Origin: Branchiostoma floridae
Lineage: Eukaryota > Chordata > Leptocardii > Amphioxiformes > Branchiostomatidae
Length of the DNA: 64,000 nt
Direction: 5' to 3'
Assembly (NCBI RefSeq): GCF_000003815.2
Contig: NC_049991.1
Span: forward strand, 16,433,284-16,497,283
Shown: in pieces, positions 33,637-63,457 of the stretch
How positions within the stretch are numbered: the first letter of the stretch is position 1
Layout of the letters: the number at the start of each line of letters is the position of its first letter
Translations under genes and position numbers: made by a program
The notes under the pieces: generated by a model
The model's database searches: none
Told to the model about the DNA's origin: nothing
What the model saw: the letters and a program-made list of their open reading frames with translations, nothing else

Positions 33637-33637
33637 T

Positions 33638-35797
33638 TACCTCCATGAAATGTCATGGAGGTTATATTTACCTCCATGAAATGTCATGGAGGTTATATTT
33701 TACCCTGCGTTTGTGTGTCTGTCTGTCTGTCTGTGTGTTTGTGTGTGTGTGTGTAAACAAGATAACTCATGAATGGCTTGGTTTGATACTTGGTGTGTTG
33801 GTGGGGTGTGATGAAAGCTGGCAATGATTAGATTTTGGGCCCCCTAGCGGCTTCCCCTTGGTACAGCAGCGCAACTTCCGGGCTTTGCTATTTCGGTGTT
33901 CTGAACATGCTATGGTCACGATTTTGGAGTGTTAGATAGCTCTGTGCTCAGGGAAGAAATGACATAAGTTTGGGCCTCCTAGCGTCTAGTTTTGGGATAG
34001 CAGGGGCATTTTTGTCAAAAACTTCTGAAGAGGATAACTCAAGAAGGGAACAAAGGATTTTCATGATTTTTGGTATGTAGGTACCTTAGACAGTATTGTA
34101 CACGATAAAGTACTAATTATGCAAAATAGGAGTACATTTGCATAATTAATGAGAATATTCTATAATAGCAGTTTTTTCAATGTATCTCTTGTTTCAGACA
34201 TGCTATGGTCTTGACATTTAGGTGGTAGATAGCTTTTAGTGCCATGACAAATTGGGGCAAGTTTCAGTCCCCTAACATTTAATTGTGGAACTGCAGGGGC
34301 ATTTTTGTCAAGACACTTCAAAGAGGATAACTGCGGAAAGGAACGACGGATTGCCATCATTTTAAGCATGCAGGTAGCTTGGGCAAAGATGTTCATAATG
34401 ATATGCATGTTATGCAAATGAGGACTTAATTTGCATAATTAATGAGGAAACTGTATAGTTCCATTGTTTTCAATAACTGGACCTCAATACATCTAACACA
34501 TGCTAATTATGATAGGTGAAATATAAGCAGATACGGTAATATGTTAATGAGGACTTTATTTGCATAATTTATGTAAAAAATTGCAAAACCACTTTATGAT
34601 TCATAATGGGAATTTTATAATTGTGACATGTGTACGTTAGTCAATGATGAACAACACCATGCATAAATTATGTTAATGTGTTAGTCAATTGCATGAAATT
34701 TATGAAAGCTCTAAATTTTCATGGAGGTATGAGGTCGCCGAACTCTAGTTTACCCTGCGTTTGTGTGTGTGTCTGTCTGTCTGTCTGTCTGTGTGTAAAC
34801 AAGATAACTCAAGAACGGCTTGGTGGATTGGTTTGATACTTGGTGTGTTGGTGGGGTGTGATGAAAGCTGGAAATGATTAGATTTTGGGCCCCCTAGCGG
34901 CTCCCCTTGGTACTGCAGCGCAACTTCCGGTTTTGCTAACTTGGTGTTCTGAACATGCTATGGTCACGATTTTTGAGTATTGGATAGCTCTTGTGCTCAG
35001 GAAGAAGTGACATAAGTTTGGGCCCCCTAGCGTCTAGTTTTAGGATAGCAGGGGCATTTTTGTCAAATCTTCTGAAGAGGATAACTCAAGAAGGGAACAA
35101 CGGATTTTCATGATTTTTAGTATGTAGGTACCTTGGACAATGTTGTACAAGATGAAATACTAATTATGCAAAATAGGAGCAAATTTGCATAATTAATGAC
35201 AACATTCAATCATAGCATTTTTTTCAATGTATCTCTTGTCTTGGACGAGATATGGTCTTGAAATTTGGGTGGTAGATAGCTTTTAGTGTCATGACAAAGT
35301 GGAGCAAGTTTCAGCCCCCTAACATTTAATTTGGGAACTGCAGGGGCGTTTTTGTCAAGACATTCCAAAGAGGATAACTGCAGAAAGGATTGACGGATTG
35401 GCATCATATTAGGCATGCGGGTACCTTAGGCAAAGATGATCATAATGATATACATGTTATGCAAATGAGGACTTAATTTGCATAATTAATGAGGAAATTG
35501 TATAATTCCATTGTTTTCAATAACTGGACTTCAATAAATGCAACACATGTTAATCATGATAGGTGGAATATAAGCAGATACTAAATATGGTAATGAGGAA
35601 CTTATTTGCATAATTTATGTAAAAATTGCAAAACCGCTTTATGATTAATAATGGGAATTTTATAATTGTGACATGTGTACGTTTGTCAATGATGAACAAC
35701 ACCATGCATAAATTATGTTAATGTCTTAGTCATTTGCATGAAATTTACAAAAGCTCTAGATTTTCATGGAGGTATGAGGTCGCCGAACTCTAGTTGA
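33638..35797. mobile_element. AT-rich dimeric element (units A and B)
   Basis: Two head-to-tail units of about 1.1 kb (to 34749 and 34750-35797) each start near TACCCTGCGTTTGTGTGT, run through (GTCT)n, AACTCAAGAA, CCCCCTAGCGGC and paired ATGCAAAT/ATTTGCAT octamers, and end GGTATGAGGTCGCCGAACTC. Two copies of a short hairpin, CCTCCATGA-AATG-TCATGGAGG, cap the left end. There is no coding capacity. Superfamily not identified. Confidence 0.8.
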
Positions 35798-36089
35798 ATA
35801 ATTAAAATGATCTATCTTCTAGAACAGAAACTATCTCAGCTCGTGCAACAAGAAGGACGAGCATAAATCACTGTAAAGCTAAACTTGTACTGACCAAGGG
35901 GGGTATAATTACCGTATGATGTACCCCCTTGTTCTCTATACTAGTATGCCATGTTGACATATAGTAGATATACAATACTTTGATATAAATGTACTAGCGT
36001 TAGACGGAATAACGTTATACATTTTTCAATATGTGTACCTAGCTACAAAGGGCTGTTGACTTTGATCTGGTCTATTATTGACATAGTTA

Positions 36090-38264
36090 CCTCCATGACA
36101 TGTCATGGAGATTATATTTACCTCCATGAAATGTCATGGAGGTTATATTTACCTCCATGAAATGTAATGGAATGGAGGTTATATTTTACCCTGTGTTTGT
36201 GTGTGTGTCTGTCTGTCTGTGTGTAAACAAAATAACTCAAGAACGGTTGGGTGGATTGGTTTCATACTTGGTGTGTTGGTAGTGTGTGATGAAAGCTGGA
36301 AATGATTAGATTTTGGGCCCCCTAGCGGCTCCCCTTGGTACTGCAGCGCAACTTCCGGTTTTGCTATTTTGGTGTTCTGAACATGCTATGGTCACGATTT
36401 TTGAGTATTGGATAGCTCTTGTGCTCAGGAAGAAGTGACATAAGTTTGGGCCCCCTAGCGTCTAGTTTTAGGATAGCAGGGGCATTTTTGTCAAATCTTC
36501 TGAAGATGATAACTCAAGAAGGGAACAACGGATTTTCATGATTTTTAGTATGTAGGTACCTCAGACAATGTTGTACAAAATGAAATACTAACTATGCAAA
36601 ATAGGAGCAAATTTGCATAATTAATGACAACATTCAATCATAGCAGTTTTTTCTATGTATCTCTTGTCTTGGACGTGATATGGTCTTGAAATTTGGGTGG
36701 TAGATAGCTTTTAGTGTCATGACAAAGTGAAACAAGTTTCAGCCCCCTAACATGTAATTTGGGAACTGCATTGGCGTTTTTGTCAAGACACTCCAAAGAG
36801 GATAACTGCAGAAAGTATTGACGGATTGGCATCATATTAGGCATGCGGGTACCTCAGGCAAAGATGTTCATAATGATATAGATGTTATGCGAATGAGGAC
36901 TTAATTTGCATAATTACTGAGAAAATTGTATAATTCCATTGTTTGCAATAACTGGACTTCAATAAATGTAACACATGTTAATCATGATATGTGGAATATA
37001 AGCAGATACCAAATATGGTAATGAGGAACTTATTTGCATAATTTATGTAAAAATTGCAAAACCGCTTTATGATTAATAATGGGAATTTTATAATTATGAC
37101 ATGTGTACGTTCGTCAATGATGAACAACACCATGCATATATTATGTTAATGTCTTAGTCAATTGCATGAAATTTACGAAAGCTCTAAATTTTCATGGAGG
37201 TATGAGGTCGCCGAACTCTAGTTTACCCTGTGTTTGTCTGTGTGTCTGTCTGTCTGTGTGTAAACAAAATAACTCAAGAACGGCTTGGTGGATTGGTTTC
37301 ATACTTGGTGTGTTGGTAGTGTGTGATGAAAGCTGGAAATGATTAGATTTTGGTCCCCCTAGCGGCTTCCCTTGGTACTGCAGCGCAACTTCCGGGTTTG
37401 CTATCTCGTGTTCTGAGCAAGCTATGGTCACGATTTTGGAGTTTTAGATAGCTCTTGTGCTCAGAAATAAGTGACATAAGTTTGGGCCCCCTAGCGTCTA
37501 GTTTTAAGAAAACAGGGGCATTTTTGTCAAAAACTTCTGAAGACGATAACTCAAGAAGGGAACAACGGATTTTCATCATTTTTGGTATGTAGGTACCTTA
37601 GACAATGTTTTACAAGATAAGATACTAATTATGCAAAACAGGAGTACATTTGCATAATTAATGAGAATATTCTATCATAGCATTTTTTTCAATGTATCTC
37701 TTGTTCCAGACATGCTATGGTCTTGATATTTTGGTGGTAGATAGCTTTTGGTGTCATGAAAAAGTGGGGCAAGTTTCAGCCCCCTAACATTTAATTGTGG
37801 AACTGCATGGGTCTTTTTGTCAAGACACTCCAAAGAGGATAACTGCAGAAAGAAACGATGGATTGCCTGCATTTTAGGCATGCGGGTAGCTTAGGCAAAG
37901 ATGATCATAATGATATACATGTTATGCAAATGAGGACTTAATTTGCATAATTAATGAGGAAATTGTGTAGTTCCATTGTTTTCAATAACTGGACCTCAAT
38001 ACATGTAACACATGTTAATTACGATAGGTGGAATATAAGCAGATACCAAATATGGTAATGAGGAGCTTATTTGCATAATTTATGTAAATATTGCAAAACC
38101 GTTTTATGATTAATAATGGGAATTTTATAATTGTTATTATTATGTGTACGTTAGTCAATGATGAACAACACCATGCATAAATCATGTTTATGTGTTAGTC
38201 AATTTCATTAAATTTAGGAAAGCTCTAAATTTTCATGGAGGTATGAGGTCGCCGAACTCTAGTT
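36090..38264. mobile_element. AT-rich dimeric element (units C and D), inserted in the duplicate
   Basis: It has the same composition as 33638-35797: three hairpin caps at the left, unit C to 37222 and unit D 37223-38264. The uninterrupted sequence exists at 28720-28745 (GACATAGTT|CTATGCTG), so both ends of the insertion are fixed to within a few bases. Confidence 0.88.
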
Positions 38265-48243: not shown

Positions 48244-49715
48244 AAGGCCACAGGGTTAGACAAGATACACTCAAGACTGCTGAAAGCAGCTGCACCGTGT
48301 ATATGCAAACCTATGGCCCACATATTTAATTTGTCTCTCTCATCTGGTATCATTCCTAAGGAATGGAAAACAGCTAAGGTGACCCCAATACACAAAGGGG
48401 GGAAAAAGAGGATCCAAATAATTATAGGCCTATATCTGTTCTCCCAGTTATCATGAAAGCTTTTGAAAAAGAGGTACATGGTCAGTTCCTGGAATATCTC
48501 CACCATCATAGCATTCTCTCTGAACAGCAGTCTGGGTTCCGGCCAGGTCATTCCACTGCTACTACATTACTGGATGTCACTGACTATGTGTATCAAAACA
48601 TTGACAGTGGAAACCTAGTGGGGGCTGTGTTTTTAGACCTGAAGAAGGCTTTTGATACAGTAGATCATCTCTTGTTACTGAAAAAACTGTCCTGGATTGG
48701 GGTTAAAGATGTAGAACTCAAATGGTTCACAAATTACCTATCTGATAGAAAGCAGACAGTATCTATAGACGGTTGTGTATCTGATTATCTCCCAGTGACA
48801 GTAGGTGTGCCACAAGGGTCAATCCTTGGGCCATTGTTATTTATTATGTTTATAAATGATCTACCAGATTGTATCTCCAACAAAGTATGTCTCTATGCTG
48901 ATGATACGGCAATTTTTTGCTCCAGCAATGACACTAGGTACATTGAAGCCACTCTGAATTCAGAACTCTCCCATATAGCTACATGGTTCCAGATAAACCA
49001 TTTGACCATAAATGCTTCAAAGACAAAGTGGATGCTCTTTGGGAGCAGTGGTAAGCTTAAGAAAGCACATCCAGTGTCAATCAAAATTGGACTAGAGTCA
49101 ATAGAAAGAGTGGTTTCATTTAAATACCTAGGGCTTATTCTTGATGATAAATTGTTGTGGAATGAACATGTTGACAAACTCTGCTCAAAGGTAACCCAAC
49201 GAGTAGGTTTACTCAGACGTCTTAGACCTTGCTTCACTGTAAATATAGCTGACATGTTGTATAAAGCAATGGTACTCCCCCTTCTGGATTACTGTGACAC
49301 CGTGTGGGACAGCTGCGGAGTGGGGAGACAACAACAACTCCAAGTGCTACAGAACCGAGCTGCCAGGGTAGTTCTGCAACTGAACCTACAGTCCAGCAGT
49401 GTCCTCGACCTTCATGAGAAGCTCAGCTGGCAGTACCTCGCAGGGAGAAGGCGGGATCATGTGTGCATTATGGTTTACAAGTGTATCAATGGGCTAGCAC
49501 CTACATACCTATCATCCACCTTCTCTCACAACCACAACTTACACAATTACCAAACCAGACAGACATCACTCCTATACAAACCCCTTTTCAAGACCACAAC
49601 AGGACAGCGTACATTTGTATACAGAGGTGCTAAACACTTTAATTCACTACCAGCCTACATTAAGCAAGTTCCAAGCCTGAATTCATTTAAGTCAGCTTTG
49701 AAAGACCTAACATAG
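48244..49715 (+). pseudogene. LINE reverse transcriptase, frameshifted near 48400-48412
   Basis: An N-terminal piece (KATGLDKIHSRLLK, IPKEWKTAKVTPIHKGG) lies in one frame and the rest, from about 48412 to the stop at 49713-49715, in another. The shift falls in an A/G run. The long piece holds the RT boxes GFRPGHST, FLDLKKAFDTVDH, GVPQGSILGPLLF and YADDT, then the C-terminal KYLGLILDD, LLDYCDTVWDSCG and QNRAARVV. The endonuclease and ORF1 are missing through 5' truncation. The body has no other stop, so the insertion is fairly young. Clade not resolved (CR1/Rex/L2-like). Confidence 0.9.
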
Positions 49716-51181: not shown

Positions 51182-52517
51182 TAGAGTTCCACGAACACAT
51201 ACCTTTGCCAAATAAACCAGGTTTGTTATGTAGAATGATGTCTGAAGACATAAATGTGCTACTCATTATATTTTATTTTATATGCCTGGAGTTGGTTCAT
51301 AACATTTTGCCATTGCTGATACAAATTAGATCCCTATTTACATACTAATATTAAATTGTATCAAGCATCACTTAAGCTGTCAGCATACCAAAAATCATGA
51401 TGATCCATTCAATCCCTTCTTGACTTATTATCTTTCAAAGTAGGAAACTAAACCGGCTGCTGCAGTTCAAGAAAAGATGTTAGCGGACCCAAACATACAC
51501 CTCTTACTCTCTGCCATCTTTCTCAGTTACATATGTGACAAGTCTGAAAGTCCTATCACGGAATACAGTGGGTTTATCAACTTTCCTCATTCATTATGCA
51601 AATTAGCTGTTAATTTGCATAACTGGTATCTCATTATGTAACGTTTTACTTAGGCTATCAACATACCAAAAATCATGACGATCCGTCAGCACGTTCATAT
51701 TTCCATTAATTATGCAAATGAGATCATCATCTGCATAATTGATTTGTATTGATATTTCTGTCTTTCTCAGCTGCACATGTGACAAGTTTGAAAGTCCTAT
51801 AAAGAAATGCAGTGGATTTACACATTTTCCTAATTAATTATGCAAATTAGCTGTTGATTTGCATGATTAGAATTCCATCATGTAAGTCTTCCCTTTGGCT
51901 ATCTACATACCAAAAACCATGACGATCCATCAATGCGTTTATATTTTCTCATTAATTATGCAAATGAGGTCATCATTTGCATAATTAACATGCATTGATA
52001 TTTCTCTCTTTCTCATCTATACATGTGACAAGTTTGAAAGTCCTATCATGAAATGCAGTGGATTTATAAACTTTCCTCATTAATTATGTAAATTAGTTCC
52101 TGATTTGCATAATTAGTATTTCATAATGTACATTGTTACTTGGGCTATCTACATACCAAAAATCGTGATGATTCATCAACACGTTCTCGAGTTATTCTCG
52201 TCCAAAGTTTGAAAGGAAATCGGCGACTGCAGTTCCAAACAAGCCGCTAGGGGGTCCAAACTTATAGTACTTACTCTCTGCCTCAAGGGCTATCTACCAC
52301 TCAAAAATCATAACCACAGCATGTCCAGAACACGAGATATCAAATATTGAGGTTCTGCTGCAGTACCTTAGCAAGCCGCTAGGGGGCCCATTATCGAACT
52401 TGACCTTCGTTTTCCCAACCCCTATCCACCTACCAAATATCATCGGGATCCATCCAAGGCTTCTCGAGTTATACTGTTAACAGACAGACAGACAGACTCA
52501 CAAGCCTAAAACATAAC
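51182..52517. mobile_element. AT-rich element with ~243-bp internal subrepeats
   Basis: It starts CTAGAGTTC and ends with TTCTCGAGTTATACTG, (ACAG)n and AAAACATAAC. This is the same layout as units A to D, read in the opposite direction, but the sequence is well diverged. Between 51290 and 52190 a unit with ATTAATTATGCAAAT, GTGACAAGTTTGAAAGTCCT and TACATACCAAAAATCATGA repeats three to four times (for example about 51706 and 51949). Confidence 0.75.
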
Positions 52518-53079
52518 GTTGGACGCCCGTTTGAGGCACTTGACATGGTCACGTAAAAAAAAGATTAAAAAATTGCGGTGGGCTAAATCAGGCTGTCAAA
52601 GGTGTCCTCGTAATCCCCACGAGTTGTTCTATCTGCCTTGTGAATCTCAAGCGATGGACTTTTACGAGAAAGTATATATTTGATGTCAAAGTTGACCGAT
52701 TTTCGACAGCTTTTTCCTATGGTTTCGCCATTGTTTTCAAGCCGAAATACGCACCGTATGGGGGTTTCGGGGTGTCCGCTTAGTGGGCGAGGTTCAACTG
52801 TTTCCGGGTCACGCTATACCGTTGCGGCAGTCACTCGGGACCTCACTCGGTAGTGTACACAAGTACTTTTGATGGTGCTGTCAGCGTTTTATCACGTTAC
52901 GAAGTAATATTGAAATGTCTTTGAAGTATAAGACAGCACTATGATCTGTAAGGTGTTATTCCAATAGGTTGCGTCGTGGGTAAAGTGAACTGTAGGTAAC
53001 GTTACCCGACGAAGGCTTTTTGTCTGACTGTAAACTGTTGCATATTAGATACATTGCTCGCGCCTGACTGAGGGATTAA

Positions 53080-55890
53080 CTAAGATTAGAACAGTATATA
53101 GCTAATCAATAGCGAATAACGTTCAGAAGAGAAACTGTGCCAATTTGAATGACACAAAAAATAGCGCCGTAAGAATTGTAACGTTATATAGCTAACTTGT
53201 AGCGGAAAACGTGTTCAGAAGACAAACTGTGTCAATTTGAATGACACATCTAAAGTACCGTTGTGCGCTGCATTAAGTGTATATAGCTAACTAATAGCGA
53301 AAAACGTGTTCAGAAGAGAAACTGTCAATTTGAATGACACACTCACAGAACAGTAAGAACTATAACGTTATGTAGCTACGTATACATGTAATAGCGCAAA
53401 ACGTGTTCAGAAGACAAACTGTGTCAATTTGAATGACACACTTGCAGATAGCGCAATAAGAACTGTACATAGCTAACTCATAGCGGAAAAAGCGTTCAGG
53501 AGACAAACTGTGTCAATTTGAATGACACACTTACAGGTAGCGCAATAAGAAATGTATATAGCTAACTCATAGCGAAGTGTAACGTGATCAGAAGACAAAC
53601 TGTGTCAATTTGAATGACACACTTGCAGATAGCGCAATAAGAACTGTATATAGCAAACTAATAGCGGAAAAAGCGTTCAGGAGACAAACTGTGTCAATTT
53701 GAATGACACACTTGCAGATAGCGCAATAAGAAATGTATATAGCAAACGAATAGCGGAAAAAGTGATCAGAAGACAAACTGTGTCAATTTGAATGACACAC
53801 TTGCAGATAGCGCAATAAGAAATGTACATAGCTAACTCATAGCGAAGTGTAACGTGTTCAGAAGACAAACTGTGTCAATTTGAATGACACACTTGCAGAT
53901 AGCGCAATAAGAACTGTATATAGCAAACTCATAGCGGAAAAAGTGTTCAGAAGACAAACTATGTCAATTTGAATGACACACTTGCAGATAGCGCAATAAG
54001 AACTGTATATAGCAAACTAATAGCAGAAAAAGTGTTCAGGAGACAAACTGTGTCAATTTGAATGACACACTTACAGATAGCGCAATAAGAAATGTATATA
54101 GCTAACTCATAGCGAAGTGTAACGTGATCAGAAGACAAACTGTGTCAATTTGAATGACACACTTGCAGATAGCGCAATAAGAACTGTATATAGTAAACTA
54201 ATAGCGGAAAAAGTGTTCAGGAGACAAACTGTGTCAATTTGAATGACACACTTACAGGTAGCGCAATAAGAAATGTATATAGCAAACTAATAGCGGAAAA
54301 AGTGTTCAGGAGACAAACTGTGTCAATTTGAATGACACACTTGCAGATAGCGCAATAAGAACTGTATATAGCAAACTAATAGCAGAAAAAGCGTTCAGGA
54401 GACAAACTGTGTCAATTTGAATGACACACTTGCAGATAGCGCAATAAGAACTGTATATAGCAAACTAATAGCGGAAAAAGCGTTCAGGAGACAAACTGTG
54501 TAAATTTGAATGACACACCTACAGGTAGCGCAATAAGAAATGTATATAGCTAACTCATAGCGAAGTGTAACGTGTTCAGAAGAGAAACTGTGTCAATTTG
54601 AATGACACACTCACAGAACAGTAAAAACTATAACGTTATGTAGCTACATGTAATAGCGCAAAACGTGTTCAGAAGACAAACTGTGTCAATTTGAATGACA
54701 CACTTGCAGATAGCGCAATAAGAACTGTACATAGCTAACTCATAGCGGAAAAAGCGTTCAGGAGACAAACTGTGTCAATTTGAATGACACACTTGCAGAT
54801 AGCGCAATAAGAACTGTATATAGCAAACTAGTAGCGGAAAAAGTGTTCAGAAGACTAACTGTGTCAATTTGAAAGACACACTTACAGGTAGCGCAATAAG
54901 AAATGTACATAGCTAACTAATAGCGAAGTGTAACGCGTTCAGTTGACAAACTGTGTCAATTTGAATGACACACTTGCAGATAGCGCAATAAGAACTGTAT
55001 ATAGCAAACTAATAGCGGAAAAAGTGTTCAGGAGACAAACTGTGTCAATTGAATGACGCATTTATAGAACAGCGATGTATGTAAGAACTGTATATATCAA
55101 ACTTAAAGCAAAAAACGTGTTCAGAAGACTACCTGTGTCAATATGACACATTATAGAACAAAGCTGTTAGAACTGTATATAGCAAACTAATAGCGAAAAA
55201 CGTGTTCAGGGGACAAACTGTGTCAATTTGAATGGTACACTTGCAGAATAGCGCCGTAAGAACTGTATATACATGTAACGTTAGCTAGCTTAAAGCAGAA
55301 AGCGTGTTCAAGAGACAAACTGTGTCAATTTTAATGACACACAGAATAGCGCCAAAAAACTGTATATAGCTAACTTAAAGCATAAAGTGAGTTCAGAAGA
55401 CTACCTGTGTCAATTTGAATGACACACCTATAGAATAAGCACTGTTACAACATGTATATATATTTAACTAACAGCGCAACGTGTTCAAGAGACAAACTGT
55501 GTCAATTTGAATGACACATTATAGAACAGTGCTGTAAGAACTTTATATAGCAAACTAATAGCGAAAGACGTGTTCAGGAGACAAGCTGTGTCAATTTGAA
55601 TGACACACTGACAGAATAGCGCCGTTAAAACAGTATATAACTAACTTAAAGCGAAAAGTGTATTCAGTAGACTACCTGTGTCAATTTGAATGACAGATTT
55701 ATAGAAAAGTGCTGTAAGAACTGTATATAGCGGATAACGTGTTCAGGGGACAAACTGTGTCAATTTGCATGACATACTCACATTATAGCGCCGTAAAAAC
55801 AGTACATAGCTATCCAATTAAAAAAAACGTGTTTAGGATACAAAATGTGTCTATGTGAATGACACATTCATAGAACAGCGAGGTAAATTT
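53080..55890 (+). repeat. Satellite array, left arm, ~30 units of 85-95 bp
   Basis: Each unit contains GCGTTCAGGAGACAAACTG, TGTGTCAATTTGAATGACACA (19-21 bases), a CAGATAGCGCAATAAGAA block and TATATAGCAAACTAATAGCG. Units at 53450-54900 are nearly identical. Those toward the inner end (55050-55890) are more diverged. The short ORFs in it are repeat translations. Confidence 0.93.
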
Positions 55891-57129
55891 ATTTTGACGA
55901 AAGCTTGCTCTAACAAAAACTTTTTCAATCGGATGATCATACTATTTGATTATCGCTTTACTTTACTTGTTTGTCATATGAATTGACACAGTTGCCCTCC
56001 TAACGAAGTTTTCTGTTGTAAAATGGTTATATGCAGTTCTTACAGCGCTTTTCTTTACGTGTGTCATACAAACTGACACAGTTTTGTGTCCTGAACACAT
56101 TAGCCGTTAAGATTTAGTCATACATTTGTATACTATACGTTCGGCGCTACTCTACAAATGTATCGAAACAAATCGACACAGCTGTGCTTTTGACTACGTT
56201 TTCAGCAATAAAGTTGTTAGGTACAGCCCAAAGTACACTTTTTACCAGTGTGTCATATAAATTGACACAAATTCTTTACTGTCCAACTTTTTCCGTGATC
56301 AATTTTACACACGTTAAACAGCGCTTTTCTAATTGTGGGTGATATAGATTGACACAGTTGTCCCCCGGAAAAACGTTTTCCATTTTATAAGACACGGTTC
56401 AAACATCGCTTACAAAGGTGTCAGACAAATTCACGCAATTTCCCTCCTGAAAAAGTCGTCCGCCATCAAGACAATTTTACACTGATTTCACATCGTGTTT
56501 CATAGCGTGTCATATGAAATAACAGTTGTCCTCCTGACAAGGTTTTCTGTCATTTGATACAGTTGTCGTCCTGACCGTGAGGGTTTTCCGTTTTGTGAAA
56601 TTTCAATAAGTTTTTAAAAACTTGTTAATTGACACAGTTGTCGTCCCGACCAAGTCTTCCATCAGTTTAATACTGTTTAATCATCGCACTAGTGTGCCAT
56701 ACTATCAGTGACAGTTGTCCACCAAAGTTTCCGTCATGAGGCAGTTTTATACTGTTTAACACTCGGTTATTAATTGCAAAGCCGTCCTCCTGACAAAGTT
56801 TTCTGTTATAAACTATTGTGTCAATTAATGTGACAAACTAGCAAACTGAATAGATATGCCTAAATCGTATAATCATTCGATTGAAAAAGTTTTCGGCAGA
56901 GCGAGTTTTCCGTCATAAGATAGTTATTATGCGTTTCAAAAGTGTGTCATATGATTGACACAGTTTTCAGCTCAGACAGCGCAGTACTAGATTTGACAGT
57001 TTACTTGAACAAGTTAGTATTTGAGTTACTTTAAACCCTACCATGGTCCAAACTCCAGTAATCAGTTGTTAATTGATATGAAATAACCGCATCTAAAGTC
57101 ATATATATACGAAGGAACGCCATTTAGTT
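55891..57129. repeat. Central part of the foldback element, degenerate satellite
   Basis: Scattered GTCAT...ATTGACACAG words, in the orientation of the right arm, are spaced roughly 60-120 bp apart from 55970 on. AAACTTTTTCAATCGGATGAT (55919) pairs with ATCATTCGATTGAAAAAGTTTT (about 56872). No gene. Confidence 0.7.
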
Positions 57130-59600
57130 CGTAAGAAGGGACCTTAGAACTTGTCTGACACACTTGCAGAAAAGTGCTGCCTGAACCGCGCTATTATGTA
57201 AGTGTGTCATTCATATTGACACAGTTTGACTTCTGAACACGCATTAATATTCCGCTTTAAGTTAGCTATATACGCTGCTTGAACCGCGTTATTATGTAAG
57301 TGTGTCATTCATATTGACACAGTTTGTCTCCTGAACACGTATTTTGCTATTAGTTAGCTATATACAGTTCTTACGGCGCTATTATGTAAGTGTGTCATTC
57401 AAATTGACACAGTTTGTCTCCTGAATACGTTTTCGGTATTAGTTTGTTATATACAGTTATTTGGGCGCTGTCTACAAGTGTGTCATTCAAATTGACACAG
57501 TTTGACATTTGAACACGCATTCCGCTTTAAGTTAACTATATACAGTTCTTACAGCGCTATTCTATAATGCATTGTGTCATTCAAATTGACACAGTTTGTC
57601 TCCTGAACATGTTTTTCGCTCCTAGTTAGCTATATACAGTTCTTACGGCACTATCATGTAAGTGTGTCATTCAAATTGACACAGTTTGACTCCTGAACAC
57701 GTTTTTCGCTATTAGTTAGCTATATACAGTTCTTACGGCACTATTATGTAAGTGTGTCATTCAAATTGACACAGTTGGACTCCTGAACACGTTTTCCGCT
57801 ATTAGTTAGCTATATACAGCTCTTTTAGCTTTGTTCTATAAGTGTGTCATTCAAATTGACACAGTTTGACATTTGAACACGCATTGCGCTTTAAGTTAGC
57901 TATATACAGTTCTTACAGCGCTGTTCTATGAATATATCATTCAAATTGACACAATTTTTCTCCTGAACACCCTTTTTCGCTATTAGTTAGCTATATACAG
58001 TTCATTCAGCTTTGTTCTGCAAGTGTGTCATTCAAATTGGCACAGGTTGACACCTGAATACGTTTTCCGCGATTTCTTAGCTATATACAGGTCTTACATT
58101 GCTGTTCTATAAATCTGTCATTCAAAGTGACACATTTTGTCTCCTGAACACGTTTCTCGCTATTAGTGAGCTATACACAGTTCTTACGGCGCTATTATGT
58201 CAGTGTGTCATTCAAATTGACATAGTTTGTCTCCTGAACACGTTTACGCTATTAGTTAGCTATATACAGTTCTTACGGCACTATTATGTAAGTGTGTCAT
58301 TCAAATTGACACAGTTTGACTCCTGAACACGTTTTCCGCTATTAGTTAGCTATATACAGTTCTTTTAGCTTTGTTCTATAAGTGTGTCATTCAAATTGAC
58401 ACAGTTTGACATTTGAACACGCATTCCGCTTTAAGTTACCTATATACAGTTCTTACGGCGCTATTCCATAATGCATTGTGTCATTCAAATTGACACAGTT
58501 TGTCTCCTGAACACGTTTTTCGCTATTAGTTAGCTATATACAATCCTTACGGCACCATTATGTAAGCGTGTCATTCAAATTGACACAGTTGGACTCCTGA
58601 ACACGTTTTTCGCTATTAGTTAACTATATACAGTTCTTACAGCGCTATTCTATAATGCATTGTGTCATTCAAATTGGCACAGTTTGTCTCCTGAACATGT
58701 TTTTCGCTCCTAGTTAGCTATATACAGTTCTTACGGCACTATCATGTAACTGTGTCATTCAAATTGACACAGTTTGACTCCTGAACACGTTTTTCGCTAT
58801 TAGTTAGCTGTATACAGTTCATTCAGCTTTGTTCTGTAAGTGTGTCATTCAAATTGACACAGTTTGTCTCCTGAATACGTTTTCGGTAGTAGTTTGCTAT
58901 ATACAGTTCTTTGGGCGCTGTCTACAAGTGTGTCATTCAAATTGACACAGATTGACACTTGAACACGCATTCCGCTTCAAGTTAACTATATACAGTTCTT
59001 ACAGCGCTATTCTATAATGCATTGTGTCATTCAAATTGGCACAGTTTGTCTCCTGAACATGTTTTTCGCTCCTAGTTAGCTATATACAGTTCTTACGGCA
59101 CTATCATGTAAGTGTGTCATTCAAATTGACACAGTTTGACTCCTGAACACGTTTTCCGCTATTAGTTAGCTATATACAGTTCTTTTAGCTTTGTTCTATA
59201 AGTGTGTCATTCAAATTGGCACAGTTTGACACCTGAATACGTTTTCCGCGATTACTTAATAGCTATATACAGGTCTAACATCGCTGTTCTATAAATGTGT
59301 CATTCAAAGTGACACATTTTGTCTCCTGAACACGTTTCTCGCTATTTGTTAGCTACATAGTATGTAAGTGCGCCATTCAAATTGACATAGTTTGTCTTCT
59401 AAACACGTTTATCGCTATTAGTTAAGCTACATACAGTTCTTACGGTGCTATTATGTAAGTGTGTCATTCAAATTGACACGGTTTGTCTCCCCAAGGAGGT
59501 CTCCCGAACACGTTTTCCGCTATTAGTTCCCTGTATACACTTCTTACAGCACTGTTCTATAAATGTGTTATTCAAATTAACACAGTTTGTCCCCTGATGT
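57130..59600 (-). repeat. Satellite array, right arm, ~27 units, inverted
   Basis: The units read TGTGTCATTCAAATTGACACA, then CCTGAACACGTTTTTCGC and TAGTTAGCTATATACAG, then CTTACGGCGCTATTATG: the reverse complement of the left-arm unit. A sequence like AGTTCGTAAGAAGGGACCTTA flanks the array on both sides (about 57128 and 59617). Confidence 0.93.
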
Positions 59601-59789
59601 CTACGAGAATGCCAGTTAGTTCGTTCGGAAGGGACCTTACAACCGTTGCAGATTCGCAACGTGGGCCGAGACGATACGAACAAACACAAACTTAAAAAAC
59701 GTTCTGCAAGTTCAAACATACTTTCGCCAAGAGTCCCTTAACAAACCTAATTTAACAATATGCGTAAGCCTGACTTGAATCCTCCTCTA

Positions 59790-61665
59790 GGGCAAATGTC
59801 AGTATTTCCGGACTTGCGCAGATGACCCAGTTTTAGTGCCCTCAGAATGCTTAGGTAGGCTTGGGAAAAGTGGCTGTAAAATTGTTTTTCTTGGGATATG
59901 TTTGGATTTTGGGGGTGCATCTTATAGGCAAGGGTTGTAGCTTCTATATTGTGTTGAAAAAACAGATTTTTAGTGATATTTGTGGTTGCAGTAGGCCTTA
60001 GAAGTTAGGTGTTTTGGTGTTGTTTACATGCAGTGAAAGGGGGTGAAAAGGTCTCCCACCTATGTTTTCATGGCGTATAATATAATTCCGCCGTAAATTT
60101 TTTCCCTTTTTTGTCGTTAAATTACTCTTCAGAGGTCGGACAACCTTGCCAATGTGAGTTTTTCATGTTCTAAAAGTCAGGTAGGTGATTTTTGACAGCC
60201 TCTTTCTCCCATGATTCCCATTGTTAAGAATATGCATAGGAAATATTGAAATTTAGCCTGCATGCTTTCGGTAGGGTATTCTAGTTCAAAATTGGCAAGT
60301 GTCAAGACACTCCAAGTGATGCGGGAAGGGTTGTCAAGCATCGTCACAAGTTTCAAAGACTTCACGGAGACCTTACCCCTAGGATTGGTCCCCAGGGAGC
60401 ACAGGTGTCAGGAGGCCTGTGGTAAGGCCTGTGGCTTTGATTAGACTTCATATTGCTTAGCAAAAAGTGACACAAACAGGGGAAAATGGTAAAATCTGCT
60501 CACCCTGTCACAAGGAGACTACTCTCCATCAATTTAGACACCAAAATTTGTATCTAAATGCTGTTCAACCACACTTTGGAGCAGATACTGGGAGTGCACA
60601 GAATGGGGGGGGGGTGTAGGTGTGCCCTTGGGGGCTTATATATCCTTGGGGGCTAATGTGTTCCCCCAAATTGGTTATGTGGGCAATAGAAAGGATTTAC
60701 CTGACTCAACTGACTGAAATTTCTTAAGAAATTCTGCCATTTTAGTGTTTTGGGGGCTGATTTCTTACTTTCTGTACCTTTTATTGACAATGCATTATGC
60801 ACTCTCATAAAATGCTTCAAAGTGTAACCTGAGCGCTTTTCAATACAGCTTTAGGTGTGTAAATGGTTAGAGACTACTCTCCTTATGCTAGAAAGATCAG
60901 CTTTTAACTTTTTCTTCAGTTTGTGTCACTTTTTGGTGAATGCTATGGCGCCTATCAAATGCCTCAGACCACTGCCAAAGCCTTGAGGAAAGTCCTCTGA
61001 CACCTGCCATGAGATCTACTCCCCTGGGAGCATTCTTGGTCAGAAAGCTTTGAAACTTGGGATAATGTTTGACAACTCTTACCCGCGTCATGCGAGATGA
61101 TTGAAATTTGTCAATTCTCAAGTTCAGGGGGGTGACAGGGCAAATGTCAGTATTTCCGGACTTGCGCAGATGACCCAGTTTTAGTGCCCTCAGAATGCTT
61201 AGGTAGGCTTGGGAAAAGTGGCTGTAAAATTGTTTTTCTTGGGATATGTTTGGATTTTGGGGGTGCATCTTATAGGCAAGGGTTGTAGCTTCTATATTGT
61301 GTTGAAAAAACAGATTTTTAGTGATATTTGTGGTTGCAGTAGGCCTTAGAAGTTAGGTGTTTTGGTGTTGTTTACATGCAGTGAAAGGGGGTGAAAAGGT
61401 CTCCCACCTATGTTTTCATGGCGTATAATATAATTCCGCCGTAAATTTTTTCCCTTTTTTGTCGTTAAATTACTCTTCAGAGGTCGGACAACCTTGCCAA
61501 TGTGAGTTTTTCATGTTCTAAAAGTCAGGTAGGTGATTTTTGACAGCCTCTTTCTCCCATGATTCCCATTGTTAAGAATATGCATAGGAAATATTGAAAT
61601 TTAGCCTGCATGCTTTCGGTAGGGTATTCTAGTTCAAAATTGGCAAGTGTCAAGACACTCCAAGT
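59790..61665. repeat. 528-bp direct repeats flanking an inverted-repeat spacer
   Basis: Positions 59790-60317 and 61138-61665 are essentially identical (offset 1,348 bp, starting GGGCAAATGTCAGTATTTCC). The 820 bp between them carries imperfect inverted arms (about 60290-60480 against 60915-61110, for example GTTGTCAAGCAT, AAGTTTCAAAG and AAAAAGTGACACAAA). It could be a separate insertion in the right arm. The ORFs at 60897-61268 and 61525-61746 are not recognised. Confidence 0.9.
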
Positions 61666-61959
61666 CGTACGACCCGGAAGTATATGATCGTAATCGGTTG
61701 CACGGAAACCCCCATGCAGTGCGAAATCGAGGCCGAAAACAGGCATAAAGAGCCAGTTTGAAGGCTAACTTTGACTCTTCAAATCTCATCCCGAAATAAT
61801 ATTTGAATCAACACGAGTACTGTAGGCGATAGAACAACTCGTGGGGATTACGTGGGCACCTTTGACAGCCTGATTTGGGCCACCGCGATTTTTTAATCTT
61901 TTTTTTACGCGACCATGTCAAGTGCCTCAAACGACCGGGCTGAAGTTAGCAGCCCATTT

Positions 61960-63457
61960 AGGGACTGTACGATATTTATCAAGGGGGGAGGGCTGGTGCA
62001 TTAGGGGGGGAGGGCCATGTTAAATTTTTTTGAGGTGGGGGTAGGGCCATGTTAATTTTTTTGCGATAGGGGGGAGGGCCATGTTATTTTTTTTGAAAGA
62101 ATTGTTTATACTATTTTTTGTTTTGATATCTTGACATGGCCCTAAAACTGATGAAACAAGTCTTCTTAATAGCCTAAAATGCAAGAGCTTCCGGGGGGCT
62201 TCGCCCCCCTAGGTCCCCCAAAGTGGCGCTGCCCTGGACCAGCGTTCCCGCCAGGCATATATCATTCCGTCTACGGACTTATTTTTTTCTGGAAAGACCC
62301 ACTCGGCTCGGCTGAGTTTCCCCAATTAATATTTAAGTTACAAAAGCGGTGCGCGGTAAATATGTGAAGAATCCAAAACTATACACTTTATTTTTTATTT
62401 ACAACATTTCTTTCTTTCTTCTTATTTACACGCCCCCCTCCCCAGACGGACTGTCGATCGCACGCACGTTGGGACGTCTTTTGGCTACTCCTTCGAGGCT
62501 AAACCGGCACTGATCACTGCCAAAGACGCAGCAGATCACCCTTCTTCGTATAATGTATAACGTTCTTGGTCTACTCTTAACTCTATGTCAAAAGAAATCC
62601 AGCGGTGAGCCAAAGATTTCACGCCGAAAACGGGGTTACCTGAGGTCGCACGAAACAAACGCACGCTCCTGGAAAATGACGGCGCGGCCTTGTAAAACCC
62701 GACCGATTCGATAAATGATAAATTTGAGTAAAATCATCATGCAAAATAGAAAAAAGAAAGTAGAAAAAACACAAGGTATGGTGGCGCCGTCATTCTATCC
62801 TCTGGAAAAACTANNNNNNNNNNNNNNNNNNNNNNNNNNNNNNNNNNNNNNNNNNNNNNNNNNNNNNNNNNNNNNNNNNNNNNNNNNNNNNNNNNNNNNN
62901 NNNNNNNNNNNNNNNNNNNNNNNNNNNNNNNNNNNNNNNNNNNNNNNNNNNNNNNNNNNNNNNNNNNNNNNNNNNNNNNNNNNNNNNNNNNNNNNNNNNN
63001 NNNNNNNNNNNNNNNNNNNNNNNNNNNNNNNNNNNNNNNNNNNNNNNNNNNNNNNNNNNNNNNNNNNNNNNNNNNNNNNNNNNNNNNNNNNNNNNNNNNN
63101 NNNNNNNNNNNNNNNNNNNNNNNNNNNNNNNNNNNNNNNNNNNNNNNNNNNNNNNNNNNNNNNNNNNNNNNNNNNNNNNNNNNNNNNNNNNNNNNNNNNN
63201 NNNNNNNNNNNNNNNNNNNNNNNNNNNNNNNNNNNNNNNNNNNNNNNNNNNNNNNNNNNNNNNNNNNNNNNNNNNNNNNNNNNNNNNNNNNNNNNNNNNN
63301 NNNNNNNNNNNNNNNNNNNNNNNNNNNNNNNNNNNNNNNNNNNNNNNNNNNATCACGTTAAATTTTTTTGAGATGCGGGGGAGGGCCATCAAAAAATTTT
63401 TTGATCAGACTTCCAATGCACCAGCCCTCCCCCCCCAATAAATATCGTACGGTCCCT
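61960..63457. mobile_element. TIR element interrupted by an assembly gap
   Basis: The left end AGGGACTGTACGATATTTAT and AGGGCTGGTGCAT are inverted at the right end (ATGCACCAGCCCTCC, ATATCGTACGGTCCCT). Repeated GGAGGGCCATGTTAA blocks sit inside both ends. A GGGGGGCTTCGCCCCCC hairpin lies at about 62193-62209. Flanks TAGCAGCCCATTT and TAGCAGCCGATTT may be a 13-bp target duplication. Confidence 0.7.
62814..63351. other. Assembly gap (538 N)
   Basis: A run of N lies inside the TIR element at 61960-63457. The two ORFs reported across it are artefacts of reading N as coding. Confidence 0.98.

Follow-up and report, generated by a model that had tools for sequence, protein, structure and literature searches.

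Foldback transposons are recognised by inverted arms of tandem repeats around a middle part and by dispersed copies flanked by target-site duplications (TSDs). These duplications are 8–11 bp long in Mutator elements (MULEs) and 7–8 bp in the P superfamily, whose transposase is of the P/THAP type and in which Galileo has a TSD of 7 bp. Galileo of Drosophila has long, internally repetitive terminal inverted repeats (TIRs) of foldback appearance and a P-type transposase; we know of no target site for it like the one described below. Tetris of Drosophila virilis is non-autonomous, with TIRs made of outer flanking, tandem-repeat and inner domains, a non-coding middle and a variable repeat number, its arrays varying among near-identical copies; its unit is 220 bp, its TSDs are 8–10 bp, it is assigned to Mutator, and no motif at fixed spacing is mentioned in the accessible text (PMC4079207). 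The Ginger1 and Ginger2 elements have TGTNR ends and 4-bp TSDs, Ginger1 with TIRs of 40–270 bp and TSDs CCGG or CCGT, Ginger2 with the target RTATAY; both groups are reported in Branchiostoma floridae, where Ginger-1_BF has a few non-autonomous copies, and satellite arms are not mentioned for them in the accessible text (PMC2836005). We describe here an apparently non-autonomous foldback transposon with satellite arms, neither Mutator- nor P-like, from a 64,000-nucleotide stretch of the B. floridae genome (G000:C13:16433284-16497283, hereafter the window), with own-genome searches run on the 513-Mb assembly. It shares the anatomy of Tetris, and most of the copies that could be checked lie at one fixed distance from a short sequence that resembles a YY1 site.

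A dispersed family with opposed satellite arms

The outer inverted repeats of the window copy (52528-52638 and 61824-61933) are 93.7% identical over 111 bp. Weaker inverted homology runs inward to 52813 and 61666, the inner TIR homology scoring 67, where 200 shuffles reach 44 at most. The initial annotation had set the element at 52528..61933. Comparison with other copies places the true left end at 52517, 11 bp further out, and the full right end carries 11 bp more, the tip GGCGTCCAACA, which the window copy lacks. The ends of the family read TGTTGGACGCC...GGCGTCCAACA, i.e. TGTTGG...CCAACA, the end sequence starting TGTTGGACGCCCGTTTGAGGCA; with the earlier boundary marked by a slash, the junctions are TGTTGGACGCC/CGTTTGAGG ... 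CCTCAAACG/GGCGTCCAACA. The window copy begins CGTTGG at 52517. The TIRs of the element are about 297 and 279 bp long, and the window copy is laid out as follows.

52517..52813, + strand: left TIR, 297 bp; tip here CGTTGGACGCC, in most copies TGTTGGACGCC
52814..53087, + strand: left single-copy spacer, 92.5–98.6% identical to the window in the 20 copies fetched at length
53088..55866, + strand: left (F) arm, about 31 tandem units of about 89 bp, most with the near-palindrome TGTGTCAATTTGAATGACACA
55867..57187, no strand: centre, conserved among copies and non-coding; decayed units in R orientation with five palindromic cores and one variant
57188..59597, - strand: right (R) arm, about 24 tandem units of about 90 bp, oriented opposite to the F arm
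59598..59788, + strand: right single-copy spacer
59789..61665, + strand: foreign insertion X(529)-H(819)-X(529) that does not belong to the element; it spans 1.4 copies of a 1,348-bp tandem repeat dispersed in the genome
61666..61933, - strand: right TIR, 268 bp; the terminal 11 bp GGCGTCCAACA of other copies absent here

With its right tip gone and a foreign 1.9-kb repeat (59789-61665) inside, the window copy is damaged, and its TSD is unreadable because the tip is missing. Between 52528 and 59788 none of its stop-to-stop frames reaches 100 codons, and the longest frame in the centre consensus is 74 codons.

The search for further copies of the end, as proposed in the initial annotation, yielded a family, its TSDs and variation in arm length. 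The first 173 bases of the left end gave 40 scored places (the best 40 of 135 candidates) at 91–100% identity. A 32-base tip pattern with at most 3 mismatches found 65 ends (0 in the reversed control) and a 22-base tip at the same tolerance 68 (control, 1). The 65 ends correspond to 36 loci, with one further end, the second on contig C341, so that the family counts at least 36 loci; both tips are present at 28 of them, separated by 3.9–17.2 kb (median 7.6 kb). Twenty loci were fetched at length and the remaining ones in pieces. The two oppositely oriented arrays of about 90-bp units that had been noticed in the window recur in all 20, as do the left TIR and the left spacer. Fifteen of them have the whole centre and four have part of it, while L027 shows no more than a weak match of 131 bp. 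Whole or partial right spacers are present in 18 and right TIRs in 17; for L009 and L016 the right end falls outside the fetched stretch, and that of L012 was not found. Counting probes and copies with nested insertions, tandem satellite units occur at 34 of the 36 tip-bearing loci, the probes of the other two reading N. Chance and assembly artefact are excluded as the source of the inverted-arm structure.

Mean pairwise divergence per single-copy module is 1.2–1.9% (16–21 copies per module), which indicates that the spread of the family is recent. The centre, called degenerate at first, holds decayed right-arm units at 55867-57187; in the 15 fetched copies with a complete centre, its identity to the window is 96.7–99.3%. 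Two older members, L059 and L060, have TIRs 92–97% like those of the window, spacers 72–91% alike and matching centre parts at about 76%. As they keep the same plan, this plan is older than the burst, and the ends are its best-kept part. L065 is a truncated relic carrying the satellite.

Target duplications and a motif at fixed distance

Among the 27 copies with two flanks, an exact TSD of 4 bp was found in 19 and of 5 bp in 2. With dispersed copies and exact duplications in 21 of 27, the view of the locus as a foldback-like transposon with satellite arms is borne out. A relation to MULE or P elements, also suggested in the initial annotation, is not, since TSDs of 4–5 bp are neither Mutator- nor P-like; for P and Galileo, no such transposase was seen in the interiors read. 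The 4-bp TSD sequence itself carries little information.

At 22 of the 27 two-sided sites, ATGG stands with exactly 15 bases to one junction, read towards the element and in a single orientation, on the right in 15 sites and on the left in 7, the element always being on its 3' side. The expectation is 0.2 of 27 (binomial P 8e-43, uncorrected for the scan of 256 4-mers x 27 offsets). Taken over 53,545 pseudo-sites in the window, the rate is 0.76% per site; in a million simulations of 27 sites at this rate, the count never exceeds 5. When 4-mers were scanned over all offsets, the 12 top counts were all within or touching the ATGG motif. The motif count left out 9 of the 36 loci with one or both flanks missing, namely the window, whose right tip is lost, C341, which meets a contig edge and N, L012, for which no other end was found, and L051-L056, each with a single end; one-flank ends from 8 of these nine, tested apart, show the motif in 3.

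The consensus of the motif is (C/A)AANATGGCGGC, laid out as (C/A)AAN-ATGG-CGGC. The bases around ATGG played no part in site selection; in 25 sites, AA was found in 18 and 17, C in 20 and GG in 14 and 15. In the predicted empty site the motif, written CAANATGGCGGC, is 11 bp from the 4-bp target. The 25-site consensus agrees with TISU, SAASATGGCGGC (PMC9658832), which is bound by YY1 (PMC2518114), and the site can be called TISU/YY1-like by sequence match. Separately from the family copies, L078 (G000:C16:19087120-19087240) has a tip-like 22-mer with 3 mismatches beside a perfect CAAGATGGCGGC site, at a distance of 10 bp from its ATGG. This 22-mer is 14 kb from a family left end and has no TIR match; chance, a relic and an excision scar are the candidates.

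Arms, passengers and neighbouring sequences

Satellite units differ on average by 22% within an arm and by 27% between the arms of one copy. A unit usually has its closest relative in the same arm of a different copy (uniquely so for 723 of 1,070), which indicates that the arms are inherited with the element and evolve separately, and are not kept mutually identical. Giant hairpins were expected in the initial annotation; near-perfect ones are not supported by the arms, whose longest ungapped arm-to-arm stretches are 213–215 nt at 79–84%. Recognisable unit cores number 12–48 (F) and 4–29 (R) per copy, in counts that miss decayed units and are blurred in places by N runs. Such runs lie within many arrays and make several arm lengths uncertain, 10 copies being gap-free. 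Over 3,734 bp, L012 and L013 share 99.1% identity but are offset by 1,345 bp in the F array; like other satellites, the arms would change in length through slippage or unequal exchange. The decayed centre keeps five TGTCA...TGACA cores, where shuffles predict 0.004, and also one TGTCG...CGACA variant, and the arm palindromes may be candidate extra protein-binding sites. A compensatory change in the unit palindrome was not used as evidence, as it concerns a single pair in 18 of 1,070 units and probably one lineage. Comparison of the left spacer with the right one, and of the satellite unit with the TIR, gave no homology above shuffles; two unit-to-spacer scores were weakly high (equalled in 3 and 8 of 200 shuffles).

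The segment 59789-61665 had been taken as part of the element. It is a piece of the dispersed 1,348-bp repeat, and none of the 20 fetched loci has a match to X or H. The 529-819-529 arrangement, with its identical 529-bp repeats, replaces 59–63 bp of 7 printed copies. Genome-wide the 1,348-bp unit constitutes a separate tandem family with 304 matches (40 of 340 candidates scored), many of them head to tail, including three abutting units at C9:9434764-9438801. This repeat occurs as tandem units and as units of about 1.4 copies with direct ends of 471 or 529 bp, and has an internal diverged palindrome. The inner inverted pair 60285-60605 / 60793-61121 belongs to it and not to the foldback element.

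Several candidates for an autonomous copy were rejected. In the 17-kb copy at C12:10871606-10888829 the left TIR is interrupted by a nested element of 7.5 kb (L049:205-7702) with ends ACGAGCAATCGC...GCGATCGCTCGT, a 2-bp AT duplication and N runs. Its frames contain DDE_Tnp_4, YqaJ and PHD domains, the sole transposase met in any copy; this element, presumably ISL2EU-like, is taken as a passenger because its ends differ from those of the foldback family. The copy at C16:19073222 is a usual element with a nested endonuclease/reverse transcriptase insertion and a 1.6-kb array duplication. The TIR of L064 (C9:913436) also belongs to a second repeat, itself abundant (40 places scored among 135 candidates), inside which L064:57-215 and L066-L069 are about 90% like the right TIR. 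The flank beyond this TIR is common to the five copies read, so that L064 looks like a captured right end. Ends without satellite, a prospect raised in the initial annotation, exist in this right-end-like form but not at the 34 readable loci with the family's own tips. A 2-kb insertion in L016 has frames of at most 147 codons, the three longest without a Pfam match, and the longest frames of two unmatched pieces are 108 (L017, 684 bp) and 168 codons (L018, 706 bp with 100 N).

Elsewhere in the window, 33637-38264 and 51517-52186 are related inverted tandem arrays with units of about 1 kb and 246 bp, 72–73% alike; the latter stops just before the element. A 43-bp inverted pair (61960-62002 / 63415-63457) flanks an N gap, beginning 26 bases past the lost right tip, and is possibly another element that took this tip away. 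A 445-codon frame at 48378-49712 has a reverse transcriptase domain (Pfam RVT_1, E 2.9e-37).

Transposition and the choice of target

We consider it probable that this is a non-autonomous cut-and-paste family, mobilised in trans, with insertion positioned beside the site, most simply by YY1. Cut-and-paste in trans by an unseen transposase with a 4-bp stagger is well supported. The TG..CA ends and 4-bp TSDs suggest that this transposase would be of the retroviral-integrase type (Ginger-like). A fixed distance with a single polarity calls for a bound protein that sets the position, and since the 12-base site fits in its entirety, YY1 is the simplest candidate. Such a site-bound protein, most simply the host YY1, would position the insertion complex, and the 4-bp staggered cut would then fall 11 bp from ATGG, on its 3' side. 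DNA-bound host factors are known to bias the insertion of the tethered long terminal repeat (LTR) retrotransposons Ty3 and Tf1. Host factors or sites likewise bias retroviral integration, which occurs near transcription-factor sites (PMC2642719); in contrast to retroviruses and LTR elements, here we deal with a TIR DNA transposon, a YY1-type site and base-level spacing.

A number of observations weigh against this explanation. No exact TSD is present in 6 of the 27 copies, L023, L026 and C8a being one base short of a 4-bp match. Five of the 27 sites have no exact ATGG: in L020 it is shifted outwards by one base, C8a and L014 differ from it by a single base at its place (about 9% chance per site), and C8b and L025 have neither a shifted nor a one-base-changed ATGG. 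The window copy, with no motif in its left flank and with its right flank gone, is unusable for the motif test. YY1 binding in the lancelet is putative. As to the enzyme, the lancelet family resembles Ginger1 in its TGTTG ends and exact 4-bp TSDs (19 of 27), but none of these 19 TSDs is CCGG, CCGT or ACGG as for Ginger1, nor TATA as for Ginger2/Tdd; owing to these different target sequences, the family is not filed under Ginger1 or Ginger2. No integrase was seen among the frames searched in the interiors read, which exclude N runs, some unmatched pieces and the interiors of C8:23601481 and C11:10917542. Within the same scope, no copy carrying a transposase of its own was found. The earlier statement that the element has no transposase of its own holds for every interior read, though not for all stretches. 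The superfamily assignment consequently rests on the ends and the TSD length.

The main rival supposes the same transposon, with a DNA-binding domain of the transposase itself reading an ATGGC-type site and YY1 uninvolved. It would yield strict spacing and polarity as readily as a tether, and Ginger1 elements do have sequence-specific targets (PMC2836005). We nevertheless regard it as rather unlikely, as the motif, about 12 bp long, matches the known site of a host factor while the TSD is low in information. That the family is a foldback element of the Mutator or P type, comparable to Tetris, FB or Galileo, is very improbable: the flanking domain, inverted tandem-repeat arms and non-coding middle are those of Tetris, but TSDs of 4–5 bp in 21 of 27 copies stand against 8–10 bp in Tetris (PMC4079207), and the ends are TG..CA. 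That ATGG is a translation start in Kozak context, the motif being a by-product of first-exon preference, can hardly be credited: the motif does contain ATGG and TISU can serve as a start codon (PMC2518114), but the AA upstream and the CGG downstream agree with the YY1 site, such a bias would not set the junction distance to the base, and the frame from the motif ATG closes after 3–31 codons in 14 of 14 reconstructed empty sites (introns not considered), so that the common factor is the DNA site and the motif ATG is generally no start codon.

Among the matches listed from the open-licence literature, we found no report of YY1-guided transposon insertion and none of an amphioxus foldback element. 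Positioned insertion by YY1, taken further, leads to a more tentative proposal built on sequence: a transposon with retrovirus-like ends may have evolved base-precise, YY1-tethered integration, its satellite arms seeding arrays beside YY1-regulated sites genome-wide. If true, this would mean that an animal possesses a natural targeted-insertion system whose conserved host partner can be tested. It would also provide a route carrying satellite DNA to regulatory sites, and extend the foldback architecture beyond the Mutator and P groups.

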